In this document: positions 2,258 through 64,000 of the stretch, one piece after another
Numbering within the stretch: the first letter of the stretch is position 1
How the letters are laid out: every line of letters begins with the position of its first letter
Assembly (NCBI GenBank): GCA_963971285.1
Contig: OZ020265.1
Span: forward strand, 6,054,270 to 6,118,269
Direction: 5' to 3'
DNA: 64,000 nt
DNA from: Astropecten irregularis
Lineage: Eukaryota; Echinodermata; Asteroidea; Paxillosida; Astropectinidae
Translations under genes and position numbers: made by a program
The notes under the pieces: generated by a model
The model's input: only the letters and a program-made list of their open reading frames with translations
Databases searched by the model: none
What the model was told of the DNA's origin: nothing

Positions 2258-5200
2258 CTGTAAGAGGTAAAATTCTGTTAAGCAGGATGTGTGTGGTGAC
2301 ACCAAGTAATTGGGCGTTTACGGAAACGGAGGCCCAGGCTCCGTCTCACGGTCCGGGTCAGGCTCGGTCTCAGGATCAGTCTCAGGCTCAGGCTCAGGCT
2401 CAGCCTCAAGCTCAGGCTCAGGCTAAGGCTCCGTCTCAGGCTCAGCCTCAACCTCAGCTTCAGCCTCAAGCTCAGGCTAAGGCTCAGGCTCAGGCTCAGG
2501 CTCAGCCTCAACCTCAGCTTCAGCCTCAAGCTAAGGCTAAGGCTCAGGCTAAAGCTCCGTCTTAGGCTCCATCTCAGGCTCAGCCTCAGGCTCAGCCTCA
2601 GCCTCAGCCTCAAGCTCAGGCTAAGGCTCAGCCTCAGGCTCAGGCTCAGGCTAAGGCTCAGCCTCAGCCTCAGGCTCAGGCTTCAGTTCTGACATCCATG
2701 TCCTGAAAATACAGGTTAAGGTGTTTCATTGAAGCTGAACCATTCTCTGTTCCCCTTTCCAAACCAGAATATCCACTTCCAAACCGCAGCCAAAAGTCTC
2801 TGTTTTGATGCCCGTTATTTCAGAATGGATTCATGAAATTGAGCCAGAGCCTGAGACGGAGCCTAAGCCTCTGTTTTGTAAACACCCTTAGTCTCATTTG
2901 AGGCCGAGTGTGGCTCTGATAACAGCCAGTAACTCAACGTTTCGGACATTGTGTGCTCTGCAATTTCTGATTCTTGTAATTGTGACAGGAAAAGAAAACT
3001 CTTGACGAAGCAGGGTCACCTCAACTCACCTCGGTTCCTTCTGGAGCTTGTGCTTGATGATGGCCTCCATGTGAGCGTTGACGTTGTCCATGTCAAAATC
3101 CTCAAAGGTCTCAATATTCTCTAGGAGAAGCTCTACGAAGTCCTTCTTGGCTTGTTCCGTGATCTCCTGCTGGTGAGCATTGTAGATCTCCTTGCGCTCG
3201 TCCACCGTCAGGTAGCGGTAGCTCTCCTCGTCGACAAGGTGGGTCAGGGTGTCCTCAAGCTGACGTCCTGGCAGGACCACGTCGCTGAGAGCATTCAGGA
3301 GCTTGCCAAATTCCACCTTCATCCTGCGATGTTGAGATACAGAGTGATGTTAATGTCAACCTAGAGGTATTTTGGCTAGGAACCTTCGTACATTCACACT
3401 TCTATTTCGTTCGCACTTCTCGTAAGGTCTCAACGTTTCAACTAGCCAGCTCTAGTCCTCATCAGGAGACACGACAGTTACGTTGAGTTTGGTGAAATCA
3501 ACCCCAGGACAAAGCACGGGCTTGAAGTCGATGAAAACGTCTCGATTGAATAAGAACCTACCTTTCTCTCTTGAGAGCCTCTTTGAGACGTTCATCGTGA
3601 GCCTTGAAGCATTTCTCGCAGTCATTGGCGTTGGTCTTCAGGAAGTCGAGGGCAATCTGCTTCGTGTCACTGTCAATGTAGTCACTAGTCCTCCACGAGT
3701 CACCAAATGGCAGCTGTATGAACCAATTGTCAAAGTTCGGATGCTTCTTGATCACCTCTTGGCATGCATTCCAGTCCCTACAAAGGCCAAAGGTTAAAGG
3801 TTACGCATAATTAGTTGATACACCCTTGGGATATGATGGCTTCTGACTGGCAAACGAATGAAGATAATTGACCATTAGGGACACCACCTACGTACGTACA
3901 TGTAGGGCTGGGTTGCTCAGTTGGTAAGAGCGCCGGTACGGTATTCCGGAGGTAGCTCGTTCGAATCCCGCTCCCATGATTCCAGTCAATTTTTCTTTGC
4001 TGACTTTTCAATGATTAATCCAGTTAGTTACCCTTGTGTTTATAACCTTTGATAAATACATGTTATGAACGTGGGTAATTTAATAACTCAAAATATAGTT
4101 TGCAACGTTTATAAGAAAATTCAACCCTAACCCTCTGCACCGACCACACAAGACAATGGCTGCTTACCACATTCTACAGTCTCCACGGGGGGACTGGATA
4201 CTAAATGGACAATCATTTGCCTGAGTTGTGTTCTTTTAATTCTGTCTATGCGACAGATTCCAGTCAGGGGAAGTCCTATAGCCTACTTAGATTTGATGGT
4301 TACTGACCTTCCTCCTATAGATGCAAGATCTGGCAGCATGTCTCTCAAAGCTAGCGGCAAGGTCTCCAGACACTGCTGCTTCTTCTTCTGCTGCTGGGCC
4401 TCCTTCAGCTTCTTGATGTGGCTCTTGAACTTCTTAGCAGCGATCTCCGTACCGAAGTACCTCAGGTAGGTCAGGTAGACGTCCTCGTTGGCCAGCTTCC
4501 TCTTGGTGCGGTTCCAGACGTCCTGGTAGTTGAGAACGGACCTCGCTAGGAGGCTCATGTAGGATTCCTCCACCTTGTCCAAGATCTCCTTCTGCTTCTT
4601 GATGCCGTTGACGAAGGGCACCTCCATGGGACGCTTCTTGGTCTTGTCGATGAGGTTGACCAGAGTCAGGAAGGCAAAGTCCACGTTGACGTTCTCAAAC
4701 GCCGAGGTTTCCACCAGGGGCACCCGCTTCTTGTCTTTGATCATCTTGACCTCTTCGTGGGCCGTGCTCTCCGGCTCCTCACACTTTGTCGCGACGAGCA
4801 CGCAGGGCTTCTTGGACTTGCAGGTGGACAAGAGGTCCATGATGAAAGACGACTGTTTATTCGGCGGGCGGTTCTGGACGTGACTGACGTCAAAGACGAT
4901 GAGGAACCCGTCCACGGAAAACTTGCCATCCGGCATGATCTTCCTGTCATAGTTGGCTTCATCACCTGTCATAGGATAAGAAAAAATACCAACAATTAGG
5001 CCAAGGCCTACTGTCTTCAATCATGCAATGCACTACCTTTCTTTCTTGTCAAGACCCGCTGGGCTAGCTTACTTAAAGCAGGGCTCAAAATAGTACTAGC
5101 CTGGCATACAATGTCTAGCAAAAACTGTTCTGGGCTAGATAGACTCGCTTCCTTGGTTGCGCGGTGGGCTAGTACAAAAAATAAATACTGCTTTCATGTA

Positions 5201-8200
5201 TTCAATCGCATCTTCCAACACTTGCTGTGCAGCTCGCTGGGTGCATTACATCAAATCATTCTTATACAGAGTTTATGAAGAACAGTGCCCTCTGCAAACG
5301 TTTCCTTAAATTACGGGCTAGTAAAAATCTTAATGGGCTAGTAAAATCTTATTAAAGTTAGCTAGTCCATTGGGCTAGCCAGAAAAAAGCACAAGGCCTG
5401 TTAAAGGTACTCTCATACTTTGGTAAAGTTGATAGAACAGCTGAAGTCTGTTCATTATTTGATTTGTCACAGAATAAAAACAAACCGATGAAATTTTCAG
5501 CTCAATTAATCATTGGAAAGAGCAGAAAACAGCTAAACACCATTGCAATTGTTACACGTAACTGTAAGGTACAATGTACATGTAATTGTGAGGTTTTGAT
5601 CAAGGAGGTCAAAACTGTTTTTGGTCGTTTGTTTTATTCTGCATTTGGAAAAATACAGTATTTCAGGCAGAACAATTTTAACAGTACTGTATGTCTGCAC
5701 CAGGCCCATCTTATACCCTGTAAATTACATGTACATAAATCAGTGTGAAAATGTCTGTTTTGATTTCCTACTGAAGTATGATCATGTAGTTTTGCTAAAG
5801 ATATGCAGATCCATGAGCAAATATGTTGTCAATAAAGATATATACATGTAGCAACAGTCAACTATGAAAGGTACACGTGTACATGTACATGGGTGGGGGG
5901 GGGTGGGATGGGGGATGGTGGGATATATCCCCACCCAATATTTGAGGTGGGGGGATGGCGTGTATTATATAACACCTTAGTAGATCCTTGTCATTTGATT
6001 GGAGGATTGTATGTCACGTGATATTTGATAAATAGACCAATTCATGGCTTACGTCACAACCGTTGAAATTTGTTCCATCCACCGTGCATTTTTGGTGCCA
6101 TCCGATTTGTACCATTGCACGCCAGGGACTCTAATACGTGATTGGTCAAGCGGCGCTCCATTTATTTGTCACTGCGTGCGCGCGTACGCGTTGGTGTGCA
6201 ACGCGCGTTACTGTAATAAGAGCATATATTTTGCCAAGATTTTAAGATTTTTTGTCTCGCTAACTCTTAAAATGTTATCCTCCAATTAAAATCAAATGAC
6301 AAAGATCTACTTAGATGTTATATAAAACAAATAATGAATGTTTCACATTCGTAGAATGGAAAAAATAATTTCATTCGGTGACAGATGGACTGTTCAATTC
6401 CACTCGGCTTCGCCTCGTGAAATGGAACAGTCCATCTGTCACCTCATGAAATTATTTTTACCATTCCACTCATAAACATTCATTATTTGTATATTATCTA
6501 CCCCCCCCCCCCCACCCCCTCCAATATTTTGAGGTTGAATGTCATTCAAGTTTATTGTATAGAAATATTACATGATACTTGTTTGATTTTTTTAGTCTTT
6601 GCAGTGAATTTATACTGTTTAATTCTTCTGAACATCGTTTTTAAATGCTCTAAAATACGACTTTTCGGCTCTGTTTTTATTAAAAAGTCCCTGGTTTGGG
6701 AGGTGGTATCCCACCTCCCACAGCCTCCCTCGCATATGACACCAAATCACCAATCATCCCCCCAATCATGAAAAGAAATTGACACCAGTGGAGAGGTACA
6801 TGTACATTGTACATGTACATGTTGGTAACTTCCAACAAATCAGATTCAATAAAGACTTCTTTTACAGTGGTACAAACTTCAATTTTTAGTCAATAGGAGT
6901 GAAATACATTCCAAGCATAGTGAAAGGAATGGGGAATATAGGGGAAATACCTCGCCTTTTAGTGTAATCCTTTGTATTCTGAGTTTACAATAGTGTCTAT
7001 TCTTGTACAGTCCATTGTCTTCTTTCATACAGTTTTTCTTTTATTCTTTTCCTTTCTTCTCGTCTATACATGTATATCATGCATGCAACTTGGACTTCAC
7101 AAAAAAAAGGAGAAAATATCAATCTTTTCCATACTTTGTACAGTGGTTTTTTTTTTCACTTTTTAATGGCATGAGAGTGATCAATGTGAAAAATGAGGAA
7201 AACATCAGCTGATCCGAGGAAAAGTTACATGCATGATAAATGTGGGGTGCTGTGGCCTAGTGGTCTGGCGTGTTGAACTCAAGATCTTGTGGTCAATCTA
7301 CAGATTGTGGGTTCAAATCCAGCCATGGGCTAATGGTGCTTGTGTCCTTGGGCAAGACGCTTTGTCCACATATTGCTCCTCTTCACCCAGGTGTAAATGG
7401 GTACATACCTGCGAGGGTAGAGATGGCTTTGTGGTTTGATTAGCCTCTGTGCGCTGAATACGGCAGCCAGGGCTGTATACTCCCCAGGGAGTCGGAGATG
7501 GTTTTACATGTAGTAATGTAAATCATGGCCTAATGACCAGGGATAATAATTGATTTGCGCCATGAGCGTCATGCTTGACGGATACCGGCGCATTATAAGT
7601 GTCCATTATTATTATATTAAATCTATTTTGGGACCATTACTGGGCCATTTTTACAAACAAACAAACACAATGTCAACAATAGGTGTTCGCTTGAACCCGA
7701 ACACGATACTACATGTAGACTACATTACATGTACATGTAGTGTACACTGATATTACAAACATGTACTATGTAGGCCTACATGTACTGTACGTACATACAT
7801 TTAACATGTTTAACAGCAGGTTGTTGGATTGTGGGTACAGTGGGAATTTTGTACACGAGGGGAGTTTGAGTGTCTGTCACGTTTCCTAGATTTACATGGA
7901 CTACATACAGTGTAATACATTTACTGTACATACATGAACATGTACAATTAGTGTATAATACACATGAATGTAGTAGGCTTACATGTCAGTGCATGTATGT
8001 ACACATGTACACATATGATTATGTACATGTGTACATGTACATGTACATTGTCAGATTGTAAAGTCTGGGAATTCCCTGGCCAGTATTTACAAATCCCAAT
8101 TGGAAAAGAAATTTTTAGTGACAACATCGGGAATTCCCCTAAAATGTGTGACATCATGTACATATTTAATCATGCATGCAACTTGGACTTAGACAAAAAA

Positions 8201-11200
8201 CGAGGAAATTTCAATCTTTACCATAATTTGTACCTAGTGTTTTTTAATACACTTTGCAATATTCCATAATAGTTCGGTACACACATAATGACTGTGTATG
8301 AACGAAATAGAGATGAAAAATCAGGATTTGATGTTGGGTAATTAATCAGTCTTAGTTTTTTCACTTATTTTTAGTCCAATTTTGCTCACAATCTGCATGG
8401 TGATAGCCAAGACATGGTTGTATCATTGTATCTGAATCTTGTAGTGATAAACAGTTTAATTTTAATGTAATGGTTCTCAGCGCAAAGTGTTGCGTTTTGG
8501 GGGGACACGCTGCTGTACATACAATGCACATTATATGTATTTATGTATACATGTATTAGGGCTGTAAGTTTACAAATAATTTTGTAACCGGTTACCCGTC
8601 TGTTTTTCGGTTACGGTTACGATTACCCGTGTAACAAAGAAAACAAAGAAAAACAAAGAAATAGTAAGTTTGGGTCTTTTAGGAACTTGGTTGACAACAT
8701 TCTTTTGTCACAACATTTTGCAGTGGTAGACATAGCAAAATGTTCGGCCTTTGTTTGCATAAGCCTGCTGGTCCAATTTTCAAAAGATCATTGACATTTT
8801 TTCTTTGTGAACTCTAGATGTGTCTACATGTATATTTCAAAAAGAAGAAGCCCTTAAAAAGATACTTTTCGATTAACCTAACTGGGAAAATGTACCCGGG
8901 TACCCTTCTGAACTGTGGGTTAACCAGTTAACTGTCCAGATACAAACTGCAGCCTTAACATGTATCCATGTAAAGTGGAAATGTACAGGACTTTTTATGG
9001 CCTATTTATATCACAGCAGTTTGCAAGCAATGCATGCTAGGGCTAATGGCCCAATTTTTTCACATATGTTTTACCCATTTCCTGGTACACGTGTACAGTA
9101 TTATACTCCAGCCTATAATAATAAATATGTATAGGCTTATAAATGCACTTGGATTCCTCAGCAGCTTACTATCATAGATACTGTATGGACAGTTGTACAC
9201 AGTTACTGTGATACAGATTTATGCATACGTTGTACATGGGGGATTGTAACCAGTACATGTTTAGTACAGTATGTGCTGTACATGATAATGTACTGTACAA
9301 ACATACTAGATCTACATGCACATGACATGTCAAATGAGCACACGTGTACAGTGTTCAAAAAGGGGCCTAGATACTTGAATATGATGTATGTACATTGTAC
9401 AAGTTCAAAGAAGCAGTTACAACACACTGTCCTCTAAAACTGAATCTTGAATAGCGCTCCGCCCTTATGATGTCACAAAATACCGGGATGTCAGACAAAC
9501 ATTGACTCACACACGTAGTGGACATGCACGCGCACACGCACACACCCACACACGTTTGCATGGTTGCAATGTTTGTCTGAGATCGGGTGCTATTTTTAGC
9601 GCAAGTGCGGAGCGCAATTGTGACATTTTTAACATTCTTAATGTAGTGGGACTTTATTATACATGATGTATCTTTATATCAAGCTTCTTTTTATGTCCTT
9701 TATTTGTGCAATGCTTGATTTTTTATGTGTGTACATTTTGTTTCTTTTTGTAAGGAACCCAATGGACCTCAGCAGAATTGTACAGCTTTTTGGGCTATCC
9801 TTGGTTTTTGTTATTTGTTATTTATTGTATTTCGTGTGTACAATACTCTGTTCATATACAATGTACACAACCGTACAACGGTACAATATGTAAGTATACG
9901 TACACATGTACAGTGCTAGCATGTATCAGTATGCATTGTAACTGGTATGTATGGCTGATCAAATTCCCTGAAAATGAAATTCTATCAGTTCCTCCTACAA
10001 TATGTGTTAAAGAGCCATAAAGTGGAGTTTTATATTAGAAGATTGGAATTACACAGTTTGGACAAGATACATACATGTACATTATCCAATACGTATACTC
10101 ATGGAGGTACATGTATACTCCATGGCATACTGTATGTGTACATGTATGTGTATCATAGAGTAAAATAAAAAACTAGAGTGCGCGCTTCGTATTAAATGTG
10201 CGTGCTCTTGGCACTCTGGCATGGACGCGCAGCCGCCATTTTAGTTGGGGTGACTGAGCAACCGCAGTAGAGTTCAAAAACGGTACCCGGATGAAGAAGT
10301 GCGCGCACTGTGCGTGACGCGACATGTATTTTATGCACAGTGCTGCGCGCACGAACCGGGGTAAGAATATGTACGCACAATTTGAAACGGGACGCGCTCG
10401 TTTGCCCTTGTTTTCTTAATGCAATGGTGCTGGCCATGGTTCGAGCATCACGCGCAGAGTGCACACTCTAGTTTTTTATTTAACTCTATGATGTGTATGC
10501 AAGTACAGAATATGATGGCAAAATGCCAGATATAGCCCTTTCACACAGATTTTATTGGCAAGCTGTGCAGGAACTACAGTATGAAGCCGGATTTTAATAC
10601 ATGTACAGTACACACAATCATGTAAATAAATAAGACTTGAAGCTACATGTACGCATGGTGGAAGTACTAAAAGAATCTAGGTTTACGGTGACACCATGTA
10701 ATGTCTTCTGTGAGAGTGTGTGGTTCTGACAAGAACTGGTGGTATTATCTCGACGATGCGAACAGTGTGCTCTAACGCTTTGTGATCATTGCTTAAGCCC
10801 AAATCCACCGCTAAACAGGAAATTTGTCGCTACTTTGCGTAGCAATTTTCCGTTTAGCGATGGATTTGGGCTTCAACGATTATCCCAAAGCAAATTAGTG
10901 AAATCGGCACTAGGTTAACTTATCTGGTCTTTGCAGATCAGTACATTGATTGCTACTTAGCGTAGCAATTTTCGGTTTAGCGATTGATTTGGGTGTAAGT
11001 CCCGCTTGCGCAAACATACGTAAACATGTTCACAACGTTTGCGTTAGACTTGGATTTTGAAGTGGAACGCACATGCAACAAATGGCGAACATGTGACATT
11101 GCGTATTGCGTCCATCTTTCATTCAATGTGGTTAGCCAACTTCAGCAAACACCTCCTCTACACTGTTAGCTACGTTAGGCGAACGTTGTGTTCATGTTTG

Positions 11201-52013: not shown

Positions 52014-52380
52014 TTAAAGGTAGTATCATACTAATTGGTAAGAAACCAAAACAGAAATGTTCACAGATTTACCTATAACTTACAGGGTATGAAGATGGTG
52101 GTGGTAGAAACATACGGTTAAACTTTTTCCACCTGAAATGGTGTATTTATCCAGAAATTAGTAACACAACGACCGAAAATCTTTTTGATCTTTTAAAAGA
52201 TCAAAAATAAAAGAGAAAAGACTTAAGAAATACTGTGGTTGTTTTCACTGTTTTTCTCAAAAAGTGGGCACCGTATGGGACTGACATTTTCACTGATGAC
52301 TGTTACTGTATCTGTCTTGCTATTTTTGCCCATGAATCTGTATTTCTTTGACAAAAACCAAAGTATGATACTACCTTTAA
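52014..52380 (-). mobile_element. MITE-A copy, intact
   Basis: TTAAAGGTAGTATCATACTA to AAGTATGATACTACCTTTAA, 367 bp: the best full-length example in the window. Confidence 0.92.
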
Positions 52381-54924: not shown

Positions 54925-57295
54925 CTGCAAGTACCAAGATTTAAAGGTTTGCTGTAATATATGTTAAAGTTAAATACATGTCTGTATTGTCATAAAACTC
55001 AACCTGTCTATCATTGTTTGTACTACAAACTATTGACTATAGAAAAATTAGGTATTTTAGACCCATAATTTAGCACCCCACTTTTCGCGACGAAAAACCT
55101 TGCTTACGTCACATGCAGAACGCCACGCAGTATACTGTGGTGCGAGCCTTTTATTTACTTAAGCACCAAAAACCTTGGTAAATAAAATCAATATGCCAGC
55201 CTACACTCCTTTTGAATGTTATGCTCAGCAAACAATGGTCGAATACAAGTCAAAAGCAGTAAACATCACATGAACATTTTGGTTGGCAATCCGGTTTGAT
55301 CAAGGAAGACTTTTCATGCTTAAAGGTAGTATCATGCTTTGGTTTTTGTCAAAGAAATACAGATTCATGGGCAAAAATATCAAGGAAGATACAGTCAAAG
55401 TCATCTGTGAAAATTTCAGTCCCATACGGTGCCCACTTTTTTTTAGAAAATCGTTAAAAACGGCCACAGTATTTCTAATGTCTTTTCTCTTTTATTTTTG
55501 ATCTTTTAAAAGATCAAACAGATTTTCAGTCGTTGTTTTACTAATCTCTGGATAAAAACACCATTTCAGGCGGAACAATTTTAACGGCAGGTTTCTAATA
55601 GCACCATCTTTATACCCTGTAAGTTATACGTAAATCTAAGAACATTTCTGTTTTGGTTTCTTATCAAAGTATGAAACAACCTTTCAGCACATTTTGTGCT
55701 TAAGCAGCTCTATGAAATTGGCCCCTGGTGACAATACCACATGTATTGCCTCGTAAACGCCAAACGTATTCAGAACGTTTTTTTTTCTCTAAATTCTTCT
55801 AAACCTGTTTTCAAATCTGAAAGGCCGAGGAGTTTACGGAGAACATCTAGTTAAACTTATCAAAACTGGAAAATATGGACTGGCGGGATTTAAAGGTTTA
55901 CTGAAACAGAGTTGTAACCAGTCACTTTTTTTTTGTGAGTCGAGTCGAGTCATTTTAAAGAAGTTACTCGAGTCGAGTCGAGTCATTTTAAAGAAGTTAC
56001 TTGAGTCGAGTCGAGTCATTTTAAAGAAGTTACTCGAGTCGAGTCAAGTCATTTTAAAGAAGTGACTGGAGTCGAGTCGAGTCATTTTAAAGAAGTTACT
56101 CGAGTCGAGCCGAGTCATTTTTAAGGAAGTTACTCGAGTCGTGTCGAGTCATTTTAAAGAAGTGACTCGAGTTGTGTCGAGTCATTTTAAAGAAGTTACT
56201 CGAGTCGAGTTGAGTCATTTTAAAGAAGTTACTCGAGTCGAGCCGAGTCATTTTTAAGGAAGTTACTCGAGTCGGGTCGAGTTATTTTAAAGAAGTTACT
56301 CGAGTCGAGTCGAGTCATTTTAAAGAAGTTACTTGAGTCGAGTCGAGTCATTTTAAGGAAGTGACTCGAGTTGTGTCGAGTTATTTTAAAGAAGTTACTC
56401 GAGTCGAGTCATTAGGTCGAGAATGTCGAGTCGAGTCACAAATATTTGGATTTAAACAAACACCAAGAGACTGGAATTTGTTTGCTTTTCTAAAAAAATT
56501 TCATCCGGGTCACAGCCTGTGATGATACACTTTACTCTGAACCCTTTCGCATCACTGTGACTCACGGTGGGCCATAGAATACCATTCATGTCACACAGTA
56601 TTCTATGTCACAGTGTTATTACATGTATGTGGTCCACAGTGCGGATTCGAGTCTTTATAAGCCCAATACTCGAGTCGAGTCGAGTCATTTAGCCTTCGGG
56701 ACTCGAGACGATTCGCTAACAAATGTGACTCAAGTTGGACTCGAGTCGAGTCATTGACTCGAGTCATTACAACTCTGTACTGAAATCAAAAGTTAAAAAC
56801 ATTTGTATTGTAATAAAAGTCAGCCTGTCTATCACTGTTTGTGCTAACAAAAATATTGTATATAGAAAAGGGAGGTATTTTAGATCCATAATTTAGCACC
56901 TCACTTTTCGCGACGACAAACCTTGCTTACGTCACATGCAGAACGCCAACGTCGCAGTATACTTTGGTGCGAGTGTGACCCGATAAACATATTGTTAAAA
57001 TTGTTCCGCCTGAAATGGTATATTTATCAGGGTATTAGTAAAAGCAACGACCGAAACTTTTTTTTATCTCTAAAAGATAAAAAAAAAAAAAACGATGAAA
57101 AGATTAAAGAAATTCCGTTGGCGTTTTTCACTGTTTTCTCAAAAAGTCGTCACCGTATGGGACTGGGAATTTCACAGATGAATTTTACTGTATATCCTTC
57201 TTGATATTTTTACCCATGAATCTGCATTTCTTGGACAAAAACCAAAGTATGATATTACCTTTAACAATACAAAATGTACATACCTTTGAAGCCAT
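53947..57295 (-). CDS. Secreted collagen-C1q domain protein (two exons, complete)
   Basis: A predicted secreted 329-residue protein of the C1q/TNF superfamily. Residues 1-20 form a signal peptide: a four-residue exon 1 (MASK) is followed by hydrophobic GICVMILFVMTGLCA. A CGCC cluster at 35-38 could disulfide-link chains. Gly-X-Y collagen repeats span about 40-190, and the globular C1q domain about 200-329 (IVFDSTATNIGGGYD, GVFTAPVNGVYFLS, FCAFLIAEL). Collagen stalks trimerise and C1q heads bind surface patterns, so an innate recognition role is likely but inferred. The alternative of starting in exon 2 (ATG at MILFVMTG) would give a shorter signal peptide. The spliced start is preferred because donor, acceptor, phase and an upstream TATA box all agree. 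The collagen part contains an internal duplication. Confidence 0.9.
54943..55150. repeat. Duplicated segment in the C1q intron, left copy
   Basis: Shares TTTAAAGGTTT, CTGTCTATCATTGTTTGT, GGTATTTTAGACCCATAATT, CACTTTTCGCGACGA and CTTGCTTACGTCACATGCAG with the right copy, which is split as 55889-55906 plus 56786-56985. Confidence 0.8.
55320..55686 (+). mobile_element. MITE-A copy in the C1q intron
   Basis: TTAAAGGTAGTATCATGCTT to TCAAAGTATGAAACAACCTTT. The fragment at 55686-55728 (GCAGCTCTATGAAATTGGCCCC) is a MITE-C end. Confidence 0.85.
55907..56777. mobile_element. hAT-like element with internal minisatellite (871 bp)
   Basis: Ends CAGAGTTGTAAC and ATTACAACTCTG, flanked by a perfect 8-bp duplication TACTGAAA (55899-55906, 56778-56785). 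Both subterminal regions are rich in GAGTC. No transposase. Confidence 0.9.
55938..56430. repeat. 33-bp minisatellite, about 14 units
   Basis: The unit TCATTTTAAAGAAGTTACTC is followed by GAGTCGAGTCGAG. It lies entirely inside the hAT-like element and keeps an 11-residue repeating open frame that is not a gene. Confidence 0.92.
56786..56985. repeat. Duplicated segment in the C1q intron, right copy
   Basis: Continues the right copy after the hAT-like element: TCAAAAGTTAAA...CTGTCTATCACTGTTTGT...CTTGCTTACGTCACATGCAG. Confidence 0.8.
56988..57264 (-). mobile_element. MITE-A copy, left end lost
   Basis: Begins ATTGTTAAAATTGTTCCGCC and ends AAAGTATGATATTACC-TTTAA. It ends 14 bp from the donor of C1q exon 1. 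Confidence 0.8.
57284..57295 (-). CDS. Collagen-C1q gene, exon 1 (codes 4 residues)
   Basis: ATGGCTTCAAAG followed by the donor GTATGT, phase 0. Too short for any ORF caller. It was found by looking upstream for an ATG-donor pair that completes the signal peptide. The TATA box lies 96-105 bp upstream. Confidence 0.75.
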
Positions 57296-59876: not shown

Positions 59877-60661
59877 TTTTTTATTTACACCACAACCTAG
59901 GGTTTTTCGCTGTGACAGTGCAAATACATGTTTGAAAAGAGACTACAAGTTGCGTGCTACTCACGCGTATACCGTAGCTGCAGTGTAATGTGCATGTACA
60001 TGTACCGTATGGTATACAGGGTACACGTTTTGGTACTTGTGCTGTACTACAGTACTGTCACATACTGTACGTACAAGTAGTGTACATACTGTTGTACTGT
60101 ATTGCTAATTTTGAACGTTGTGGAGGGACGGAATGAAATGTAAAAGCACGACAAAACACACGTGTACATTTCATGTAAATGTGATGAATACAATGTACAC
60201 AGCCTGGTCAGAGTAACTTGATCTATGCTTGGACCCAACAAATTACAGTACGAATGTTAGGCGTCTTATTAGCATAACTTATAGGCGATTCAAAGTGCCA
60301 ACGTGTAATTTCTCTGACCTAATTCTACCTCCATGCTCTTACTCTGTAATTTTTTTGTCCATAGGCACTCTTTCGCGGCGTAGTTTCTCTGTGATCGTTG
60401 TCATTTCCACCTCATATTCATAACTCATTTAAAAACTAGGTTGATCCTCATTTTAATTCAGAGCTGGAGAGCTAAGCTTCACCTTATTTAGACGTATTTG
60501 TCAAGTTTCAATTCCTGCATTGTAACTATTCCCCCACCGCTATTGCCAGTTAATGGCACAACAGCTGTAGTCTCTTCTCAAGCATGACTCTACACTGCCA
60601 CAGCGAAAAACCCTAGGCTACGGTGTAAATAAAAAATATGCAGCCCGTCCATTGTCGAAGA

Positions 60662-60757
60662 CAATACACGGGTTTACACTTCGGTAGTTTTGATCGCGAC
60701 TTCGAAACGAGGCACTATTACGCATGCGCACTTTTAGAAGTGTAAACCCGTGTATTG
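60662..60757. mobile_element. MITE-N copy 2
   Basis: Perfect ends CAATACACGGGTTTACAC / GTGTAAACCCGTGTATTG around CGAAACGAGGCACTATTACG and the palindrome CGCATGCG. Confidence 0.8.
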
Positions 60758-60902
60758 CATATTTTTTGAACGGCTGCGGTTTCGCGACGCGCACTACTAT
60801 ACAGGGGACTGCGTGTATGTACGTACGTGCAACGGGCCAATGTGGACAGGTCGTGGGGGGAGGGATATAAAATAAAATCGAACAGAATCTGTTCTAGTAT
60901 AG

Positions 60903-60938
60903 CCATAGACCTGGAAGAATTTTCCTCCAGGTCTATGG
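60903..60938. repeat. Small perfect hairpin
   Basis: CCATAGACCTGGA / TCCAGGTCTATGG, 13-bp arms with a 10-nt loop. Confidence 0.8.
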
Positions 60939-61312
60939 TATAGCCCATGTCATTTTTTTTGTTTCTGACCAGTTTTTATGAGGGGATCGAGTCAGCTAGC
61001 TACAAGAAGAACGACACTCAACGTCACGACCGTACGGAACGGAAACATGACAGTTGCATGTCCACATGTCGGGCCTGCATGCGATATGCATGGGGTGTGC
61101 TCAGATCGCACGGAGTGACATTGAGGTGTGTGTCAGTTCGTGAAACCGATTTCTAACAGAAGTACACATCATGAGTGTCCCTACTATATGGAAAAATGAA
61201 GTGCAACAGAATGTGGGGCCCATGCACCAAGACGGCATAGGCCTATACTCGAGGGTGACTCAGAGGTGAAAGATGTGGAGAGCAGCTATAGTACCTGGTA
61301 GGGGCAGAGTAT

Positions 61313-61471
61313 GTGAAGGTTGGAAAATGTGGACAAGTGGTTCCCAAAACTATAAAGGAAAGGACAAGTGGTTTCTACAACTATAAAGAGGGGGAGGCTG
61401 GCTGGCCGGTGGGGAGGCTGATACTCAGCCACATCAACCTCCCTAAATGTCTTCACCTGGGAATCCAACAG
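61313..61471 (+). other. Exon-like stretch ending at a strong donor
   Basis: The plus frame ends LPKCLHLGIQQ at CAACAG|GTAAGATT, phase 0. It could be an exon upstream of the 360-bp array, but no acceptor or domain supports it. Confidence 0.2.
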
Positions 61472-62075
61472 GTAAGATTGAAAATGGCACATAATTTATG
61501 GCTGCTTAAAAAGCAAGAAACCCAAAGTGTGCAGACTACAGTGGCCTGATTATAATACAACATTGCATAAAAAACATTTTGAGGTGAGCGAATCGCCGTG
61601 GAGTATCTCTTGGCCCATCAGTCTGGGCAGGGAGATTTAAAGGCCTGCGCGGGATGATGACCTTGGTGCGACACTCCCAGTACCTCGTGCCAACAGAAAT
61701 AATGAAAAGCCACTTAAAAACCAACTATCTTAATACAAAAGAGTGAAAAAATACCACTCTTTTAGAATCGAGTTGTCCTTCATATACATGTACTCTTAAA
61801 AAAGTGTGGTAGTTTTTTCACCCTTTTGGATAAGTTTTCACTCTGAGCCATAGTGAAAAAAAAATTAACTCAAAACGATGTAAACTTCATAAAGAGTGGG
61901 AGGCAGCTCAAAAAAGAGTTGTCCCTCTTGTGGCTTTTCACTCTTTTGCATTTAGAGAGTAGTATATTTACACTTAAAGCAGAAGAAAGAGGCCTGTTGA
62001 AGCAATTTCACCAGCACTGCACACATTTCCTTAGGCCTAATAATTAAAACCAAGTGATGTTGTCTTACATTTCAG

Positions 62076-62365
62076 ACTTTTCTTGTCTGGTTGGGTGGTA
62101 GCACACCGACCAGACTCGACCAGAGTCTATATGAGTGCATGTTTGCACCTGGAGATCTTTCTTGACAGTTGGATGTATCTGGGATAGTGGCTACTGGAGA
62201 AGGAGTATAGACAGAAGAGGAGCCGGCAGAAGGACATTACTGGCAAGGTCCTCCCAATCCCCCAGTCAATTGTCCAGACGTACGCCCACAACCAGCAGCA
62301 GTGCATGTGGTGCAGGACAGGGAGATGGTGTTTGTCACTGAGAACAACACCATCGTCAGTACTTG
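62076..62365 (+). pseudogene. Array unit 1, exon-like block (diverged, 290 nt)
   Basis: It alone has AGA where the amplified copies have TGA, and it carries an extra segment of about 42 nt (near 62143-62190) containing TAG (62185-62187). A 13-nt shorter stretch near 62295-62335 shifts the frame before the VTENNTIVSTW end. It keeps DITGKVLPIPQSIVQTYAH, giving several synonymous differences from the later units. Confidence 0.6.
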
Positions 62366-62465
62366 GTAAGATATGTCCCAACGATGCCATCAAAATGACT
62401 GCATTGCAGATACAAAAAACCAGTATGAAACTAAACATTTAAGTGATGTTGTCTTACATTTCAAG

Positions 62466-62725
62466 CTATTCTTGTCAGGTGGGGTGGTAGCACACTGACC
62501 AGACTCGAACTGAGTCTCTGAATGCATATGTATTCACCTGGAAAAGGAGTACCGGCAGAAGAGGAACTAGCCGAAGGACATCACTGGCAATGTCCTCCCA
62601 ATCTCCCAGTCAGTATTCCAGACCTACTCCCACATCCGGCAGGTGGAGCAGGACTGTGAGATGGTACAGCGGGAGACGAACTTGGTGCTTGTCACTGTCA
62701 ACAACACCACCGTCATCAGTACTTG
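62466..62725 (+). pseudogene. Array unit 2, exon-like block
   Basis: The acceptor is altered (TTTCAAG). The frame is broken by two upstream TGA codons and a TAG in place of the CGA/CGG of the other units (after KEYRQKRN). Confidence 0.6.
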
Positions 62726-62824
62726 GTAAGATATGTCCCAACGCATGCCACCAGAAAGACTGCATTGCAGATAAAGAAACCAGTATGAAACTAGACATTT
62801 AAGAGATGTTGTCTTACATTTCAG

Positions 62825-63085
62825 ACTAGCCTTGTCTGGTGGGGTAGTAGCACACAGACCAGACTCTATCTGAGTCTCTGGATGCATGTGTATCTACCTG
62901 GAGAAGGAGTACCGGCAGAAGAGGAACCGACCGAAGGACGTCACTTGCAATGTCCTCCCAATCTCCCAGTCAGTAGTCCAGACGTACTCCCACATCCGGC
63001 AGGTGGAGCAGGACTGTGAAATGGTACAGCGGGAGACGAACTTGGTGCTTGTCACTGTCAACAACACCACCGTCATCAGTACTTG
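62825..63085 (+). pseudogene. Array unit 3, exon-like block (261 nt)
   Basis: Good acceptor and donor. TGA at codon 16 of the ancestral frame, then open to the donor. Differs from unit 4 at only a few positions (for example TGC/GGC and GAA/GAG). Confidence 0.6.
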
Positions 63086-63184
63086 GTAAGATATGTCCCA
63101 ACGCATGCCACCAGAAAGACTGCATTGCAGATAAAGAAACCAGTATGAAACTAGACATTTAAGAGATGTTGTCTTACATTTCAG

Positions 63185-63445
63185 ACTAGCCTTGTCTGGT
63201 GGGGTAGTAGCACACAGACCAGACTCTATCTGAGTCTCTGGATGCATGTGTATCTACCTGGAGAAGGAGTACCGGCAGAAGAGGAACCGACCGAAGGACG
63301 TCACTGGCAATGTCCTCCCAATCTCCCAGTCAGTAGTCCAGACGTACTCCCACATCCGGCAGGTGGAGCAGGACTGTGAGATGGTACAGCGGGAGACGAA
63401 CTTGGTGCTTGTCACTGTCAACAACACCACCGTCATCAGTACTTG
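63185..63445 (+). pseudogene. Array unit 4, exon-like block (261 nt)
   Basis: As unit 3, with the same TGA at codon 16. Open from there through VLPISQS and NNTTVISTW to the donor. Confidence 0.6.
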
Positions 63446-63543
63446 GTAAGATATGTCCCAACGCTGCCATCAGAAAGACTGCATTGCAAATAAAGAAACC
63501 AGTATGAAACTAGACATTTAAGTGATGTTGTCTTACATTTCAG

Positions 63544-63804
63544 ACTATTCTTGTCTGGTGGGGTAGTAGCATACAGACCAGACTCTACCTGAGTCTCTGG
63601 ATGCATAACTATCCACCTGGAGAAGGAGTACCGGCAGAAGAGGAACCGGCCGAAGGACGTCACTGGCAATGTCCTCCCAATCCCCCATACAAAAGTCCAG
63701 ACATACTCCCACATCCGGCAGGTGGAGCAGGACTGGGAGATGGTACAGCGGGACTCAAACTTGGTGCTTGTCACTGTCAACAACACCACCGTCATCAGTA
63801 CTTG
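63544..63804 (+). pseudogene. Array unit 5, exon-like block (261 nt)
   Basis: TGA at the shared codon in the ancestral frame. The phase-0 frame is open for all 87 codons here because TGT-GAG became TGG-GAG. This alternative frame is closed in units 2-4, so I regard it as incidental. Confidence 0.55.
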
Positions 63805-63902
63805 GTAAGATTATGTCCCAACGCTGCCATCAGAAAGACTGCATTGCAGATAAAAAAAAAACAGTATGAAACTAGACATTAAGTGATGTTATCACATTTC
63901 AG

Positions 63903-64000
63903 ATTAGCCTTGTCTGGTGGGGTAGTAGCACACAGACCAGACTCTATCTGAGTCTCTGGATACATAATGTATCCACCTGGAGAAGGAGTACCGGCAGAAG
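63903..64000 (+). pseudogene. Array unit 6, cut by window edge
   Basis: Acceptor CACATTTCAG, then the same GCCTTGTCTGGTGGGGTAG start and the shared TGA. A 1-nt insertion (CATAATGTATCC) shifts the frame. Confidence 0.5.

Follow-up and report, generated by a model that had tools for sequence, protein, structure and literature searches.

Poison exons are splice-bounded blocks carrying in-frame stops, and they are one of the systems with which the locus described here can be compared. The others are tandem exon duplications, genes containing the DUF6729 domain (PF20499) and clusters of mutually exclusive exons. For the last of these, a rule on joint inclusion and premature stops is given in PMC5740500. 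In the papers searched, the word DUF6729 is not mentioned.

The window, a stretch of 64,000 nucleotides from Astropecten irregularis analysed as a whole, ends in a tandem array, reported by TRF at 62194-64000 with a period of 360, 5.1 copies, 91% matches and a score of 2855. An earlier note on this DNA had described the array as at least six exon-like units about 360 bp apart, each composed of an acceptor, a block of about 261 nt and a donor. Positions of the units were set by their exon borders, which gave the following features.

62076-62365, plus strand: unit U1, 290 nt, with AGA at the place of the TGA, a 45-nt insertion containing TAG and a 13-nt deletion.
62465-62725, plus strand: unit U2, 261 nt, acceptor AG lost, with the TGA and two further in-frame stops.
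62825-63085, plus strand: unit U3, 261 nt, with a single in-frame TGA and 99.2% identity to U4.
63185-63445, plus strand: unit U4, 261 nt, with a single in-frame TGA.
63544-63804, plus strand: unit U5, 261 nt, with a single in-frame TGA.
63903-64000, plus strand: unit U6, crossing the window end, without a donor.

Six starts spaced by about 360 bp are thus seen, but only five units are complete. Extension to the right, which the earlier note had proposed, was carried out in coordinates where the first base of stretch L010 is 64001: U6 can be followed by homology into L010 for about 52-58 bp, and no donor is reached. The uniform composition ascribed to the units holds in part. The AG acceptor is at its expected place in 5/6 units, U2 reading tttcaa/G there (the slash marks the exon border); the block is 261 nt long in four of the six, U1 differing; and the donor TG/gtaaga is found in all except U6. 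The TAG within the insertion of U1 is in frame, and its 13-nt deletion shifts the frame. The TGA claimed for U2-U6 at a common place, where U1 has AGA, was seen in all five, that is, in 5/6 units. Acceptor, donor and in-frame TGA are present together in U3, U4 and U5. The further claim that joining consecutive copies would itself create a stop is correct for 4/5 unit-unit joints, which form TG/A, and fails for the joint of U1 to U2, which forms TG/G.

The 475.7-Mb genome was searched with two of the units and with the translation; the DNA search leaves out words that are very frequent, all 16 candidates of the protein search were scored, and the resulting counts are lower bounds. In addition to the window array, at least one second array and four single copies were found.

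C30, 3.290 Mb, on the window's contig: second array (L011) of three units, V1-V3, the first (V1) incomplete.
C11, 21.16 Mb: single-copy exon L012.
C1, 8.00 Mb: single-copy exon L013.
C11, 19.91 Mb: single-copy exon L014.
C11, 19.57 Mb: single-copy exon L015.

The search for an intact parent exon, suggested by the earlier note, gave open single copies: at all four single-copy loci found, the exon is 258 nt long, open in the phase-2 frame, preceded by ttacattacag and terminated by TG/gtaaga, and carries AGA where U2-U6 have TGA. These exons begin with A and end with TG (4/4), the exon being symmetric, phase 2, and the joint to the next exon is TG/G in L011, L013, L014 and L015. Window units are 3 bases longer than the single-copy exon because of an inserted codon common to U2-U5. 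A one-base deletion is common to 3/3 units of L011, as the TGA is to most of the window units. At the place of the TGA, V3 reads TTA and V2 reads AGA, while V1 is without that part; V3 also has neighbouring letters in common with U3, U4 and U6. Alignment reveals three units in L011, yet no array was reported by TRF at that locus. The unit translation matched nothing in Pfam or PHROGs, nor did a longer reading of the unit in Pfam.

Repeats of other kinds lie near some of these loci. Positions 52018-52254 and 55445-55688 of the window are copies of a dispersed repeat, which is also present just upstream of the exon in L012-L015. L015 carries, upstream of its single-copy exon, a 72-bp array (6 copies, 6124-6558) and a 157-bp array (14 copies, 6667-8924), the gene-strand readings of which are open over long stretches; repeats related to both are carried by L014.

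Past coding use of the unit, proposed by the earlier note from differences between units, was confirmed against the four single-copy loci, where dN/dS of U2-U5 ranges from 0.11 to 0.20 in 16/16 pairs, with upper bootstrap limits not exceeding 0.35. The analysis excluded U1, U6 and the three units of L011, which carry indels or are truncated, and skipped stop codons. Differences between U4 and L013 are distributed over the three codon positions as 17/8/33. Among the four single copies, values of 0.31-0.53 were obtained in five of the six pairs, those that were computable, the interval lying below 1 in two of the five. The comparison between units, also proposed earlier, gave 0.31-1.73 among U2-U5, with intervals including 1 in 5/6 pairs; the interval of the U3-U4 pair, 0-0.90, rests on two differences. 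The repeat unit is a former coding exon, and the low dN/dS shows constraint before amplification. Relaxed constraint after amplification is consistent with these values, which do not prove it. A point against the explanation favoured below is that U4 and L013 differ at 30.5 of 61.2 synonymous sites, well above the level in the neighbouring introns, where 10 of 64 and 19 of 101 positions differ (Fisher test on rounded counts, p about 1e-4 for each); the intron alignments were optimised with free ends, which lowers intron divergence somewhat.

At L013 a stretch matching PF20499 precedes the exon; its two open pieces, searched separately, gave E values of 1.1e-44 and 3.5e-20, and the gene holding the exon contains the DUF6729 domain at this locus. 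The order of parts there is DUF6729, middle exon, upstream exon, unit, downstream exon and C-terminal piece; the downstream exon is proline-rich and the C-terminal piece contains cysteine. The searches turned up no locus with a complete working gene, and none of the four single-copy loci was shown to hold one. The upstream-exon match is interrupted by TGA twice at L013 and once at L014, the DUF6729 part of L013 is split over two frames, and no acceptor for the downstream exon was found within the 200 bases inspected at L012. The intron following the exon measures 32 nt at L014 and L015, versus 88 nt at L013. Genome-wide, DUF6729 is matched by 21 stretches, of which 13 contain a stop; the family is therefore multi-copy and much of it decayed. 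An open DUF6729 stretch on C21 (L057; PF20499 E 1e-88) showed no unit match in 5.6 kb, the best unit E value being 2.4. The PF20499 search matched 0/14 control genomes, and comparison of a DUF6729 piece with viral contigs confirmed no relative.

At L012 the nearest upstream-exon match (C11:21171748-21172098) is about 9 kb from the unit. The interval between them contains a 719-codon open stretch (L012 reverse strand, 2-2158), which we take to resemble a retrotransposon integrase.

Parts of the same gene are recognizable on both sides of the window array.

61197-61329, plus strand: degraded remnant of the gene's DUF6729-coding region, aligned by blastn with L013 reverse strand 773-897 at 72.6% over 135 columns.
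61579-61686, plus strand: second remnant, whose L013 counterpart lies after the DUF6729 part and before the exon (blastn, 80.6% over 108 columns, L013 reverse strand 2138-2241).
61969-62075, plus strand: end of the upstream intron (blastn; 19-21 differences in 101-102 positions against the four single-copy loci).
64143-64660 in extended coordinates, plus strand: match to the downstream exon and the C-terminal piece, 3' of the array.

The L013 segment 773-897 falls within the DUF6729 coding stretch matching PF20499; its gene orientation is kept in the window, and the remnant contains indels. The remnants on either side of the array all keep plus-strand orientation and the gene's order of parts, so that the array sits where the exon itself belongs in the gene. 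At the array locus nothing matches the beginning of the downstream exon, acceptor included; searches of the window did not detect the middle and upstream exons, and neither side of the array yielded a complete exon of the parent gene. A search of 60000-64000 against Rfam at gathering scores gave no match.

A short element located between the gene remnants, at 61724-61960, has 26-nt inverted ends, 88% complementary, and resembles an inserted miniature transposon. A transposase-like stretch (L011 2688-3029) lying upstream of the second array had initially been assigned to the gene; it was dropped because it has no match (E 1e-3) in the window plus L010, in L012-L015 or in L051-L055, while 35 other places of the genome match it. 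One of its relatives, L056, has Pfam matches below the cut-off only, the best being MULE with 16.9 versus 27.6 bits. On the far side of the window array, L010 contains at 2946-3183 an open stretch starting with ATG and followed by gtaagt, possibly resembling the start of a phospholipase-C-like (PRIP) gene; compared with solved structures it gave two matches, E 0.75 and 0.79, which were taken as chance.

The sequences separating the units carry a trace of how the repeat was formed.

62366-63902, plus strand: span with five hybrid introns, 98-99 nt each.
62366-62464, 62726-62824, 63086-63184, 63446-63543 and 63805-63902, plus strand: the inter-unit introns, all five sequences alike.

The hybrid structure was aligned in detail for one intron per array. 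In the intron after U4, the first 64 nt or so correspond to the downstream intron of L013 and the last 37 nt or so to its upstream intron; the intron after V2, in the second array, is likewise composed of about 64 nt of downstream and about 37 nt of upstream intron. Such a product is left by a single duplication with both breakpoints in the flanking introns, and each repeat contains the complete exon plus a hybrid intron. Since both arrays have the same junction region, the initial duplication is likely to be older than their separation. There was also a recent change in copy number, as indicated by the near-identity of U3 and U4 and by the identity of the introns preceding them. In a midpoint-rooted tree of 11/13 rows, from which U6 and V1 were left out as too short, U1-U5 lie on the opposite side from V2, V3 and the single copies; two of the eight inner branches are well supported and three are open.

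These observations are best explained if one exon was duplicated in tandem within a decaying copy of a DUF6729-type gene that exists in multiple copies, the array most likely being functionless now; to this reading we assign a probability of about 0.88. A single intron-to-intron duplication would have generated the first two-exon array before the two C30 array loci separated. Unequal crossing over or slippage would later have altered copy number, once each locus had acquired its own lesion, the TGA in the window array and the 1-nt deletion in the L011 array, and the splice motifs at the borders would have been inherited rather than selected. The earlier note is right in that the TGA was multiplied along with the array. 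The TTA of V3 at the TGA place and the letters it has in common with U3, U4 and U6 make this order of lesion and duplication less clear. The array is most likely a non-functional by-product, a judgement based on the stops of U2-U6, the shifted frame of U1, the lost acceptor of U2 and the lack of any complete neighbouring exon among those searched for.

Two readings would disconnect the array from a gene. A plain satellite with splice motifs arisen by chance would fit a head-to-tail array with near-identical neighbours such as U3 and U4, but is already contradicted by the single-copy loci, which carry the exon together with pieces of the flanking exons, and by dN/dS far below 1. In addition, where many copies in large or many arrays would be expected, two arrays and four single copies were found, and even as lower bounds these are few loci; the array is hardly to be called a satellite, and the role of chance has a close to negligible probability. 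The earlier note had also considered a captured exon turned satellite, which the same scarcity of copies does not favour. That the exon moved into unrelated DNA and was amplified there could find support in the fact that tblastn with four protein pieces from the upstream part of the gene gave no match in the window at E 1e-3. At the DNA level, however, pieces of the other exons still flank the array, in order and on the same strand, which weakens this reading already and leaves it highly improbable. The array is, by all appearances, an in-place exon duplication expanded in a dying gene copy and not a captured exon.

Other readings retain the gene and assign the array a role. As poison exons, the units would be spliced into the message, the TGA would truncate it and the gene would thereby be regulated. 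The blocks are indeed splice-bounded and contain in-frame stops, with donor, acceptor and TGA each in 5/6 units and TG/A at four of the five joints. This suggestion of the earlier note nevertheless gained no support, as the gene on either side is reduced to incomplete pieces: the DUF6729 remnant upstream has indels and an identity of 72.6%, no match was found for the beginning of the downstream exon and its acceptor, and the acceptor loss of U2 and the differing lesions of the second array look like decay. An array of poison exons is thus very unlikely. Alternatively, the units might form a cluster from which a single exon is picked, as two included copies would create TG/A. In agreement with this, the single-copy exon starts with A and ends with TG at all four loci, so that any tandem copy yields TGA at the joint, and its joint to the next exon is TG/G wherever given above. 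Alternative exons of such a cluster should be open in frame, but no choice among the units gives an open product, because they carry stops (U2-U6) or frame-shifting indels (U1 and V1-V3); we regard this possibility as one with very little to recommend it, on a par with capture. Slightly less improbable than either of these roles, yet still a long shot, is that the array is, or once was, a self-limiting exon cluster, in which no more than one copy can be read; if this is true, the ends of the exon (first A, last TG, phase 2) make each tandem copy poison itself with TGA at the joint, whereas the exon joins its successor in frame as TG/G.

Read as a tandem exon duplication in a decaying gene copy, the array is a clear fossil of how such duplications begin and continue: an intron-to-intron duplication, a retained hybrid intron and an expansion carrying along the disabling change of each locus. 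Repeats bounded by splice motifs can share a stop and still be simple remnants, and caution is needed in that poison exons or exon clusters should not be annotated on sequence alone.

Compared with known systems, the array resembles tandem exon duplications in that a whole exon of symmetric phase is repeated head to tail and the breakpoints fall within the introns on either side. It differs from tandem exon duplication clusters in being located in a broken gene copy, in consisting of five full copies plus a part, and in carrying stops and frameshifts with no sign of use. With poison exons it shares splice-bounded blocks with in-frame stops; the difference is that no surviving host message was found, and the locus, as far as its sequence tells, gives no sign of inclusion or conservation. 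With DUF6729 genes (PF20499) the connection is the parent exon, which at L013 lies downstream of a DUF6729 stretch, whereas the array locus retains just a broken stretch of the domain-coding part.
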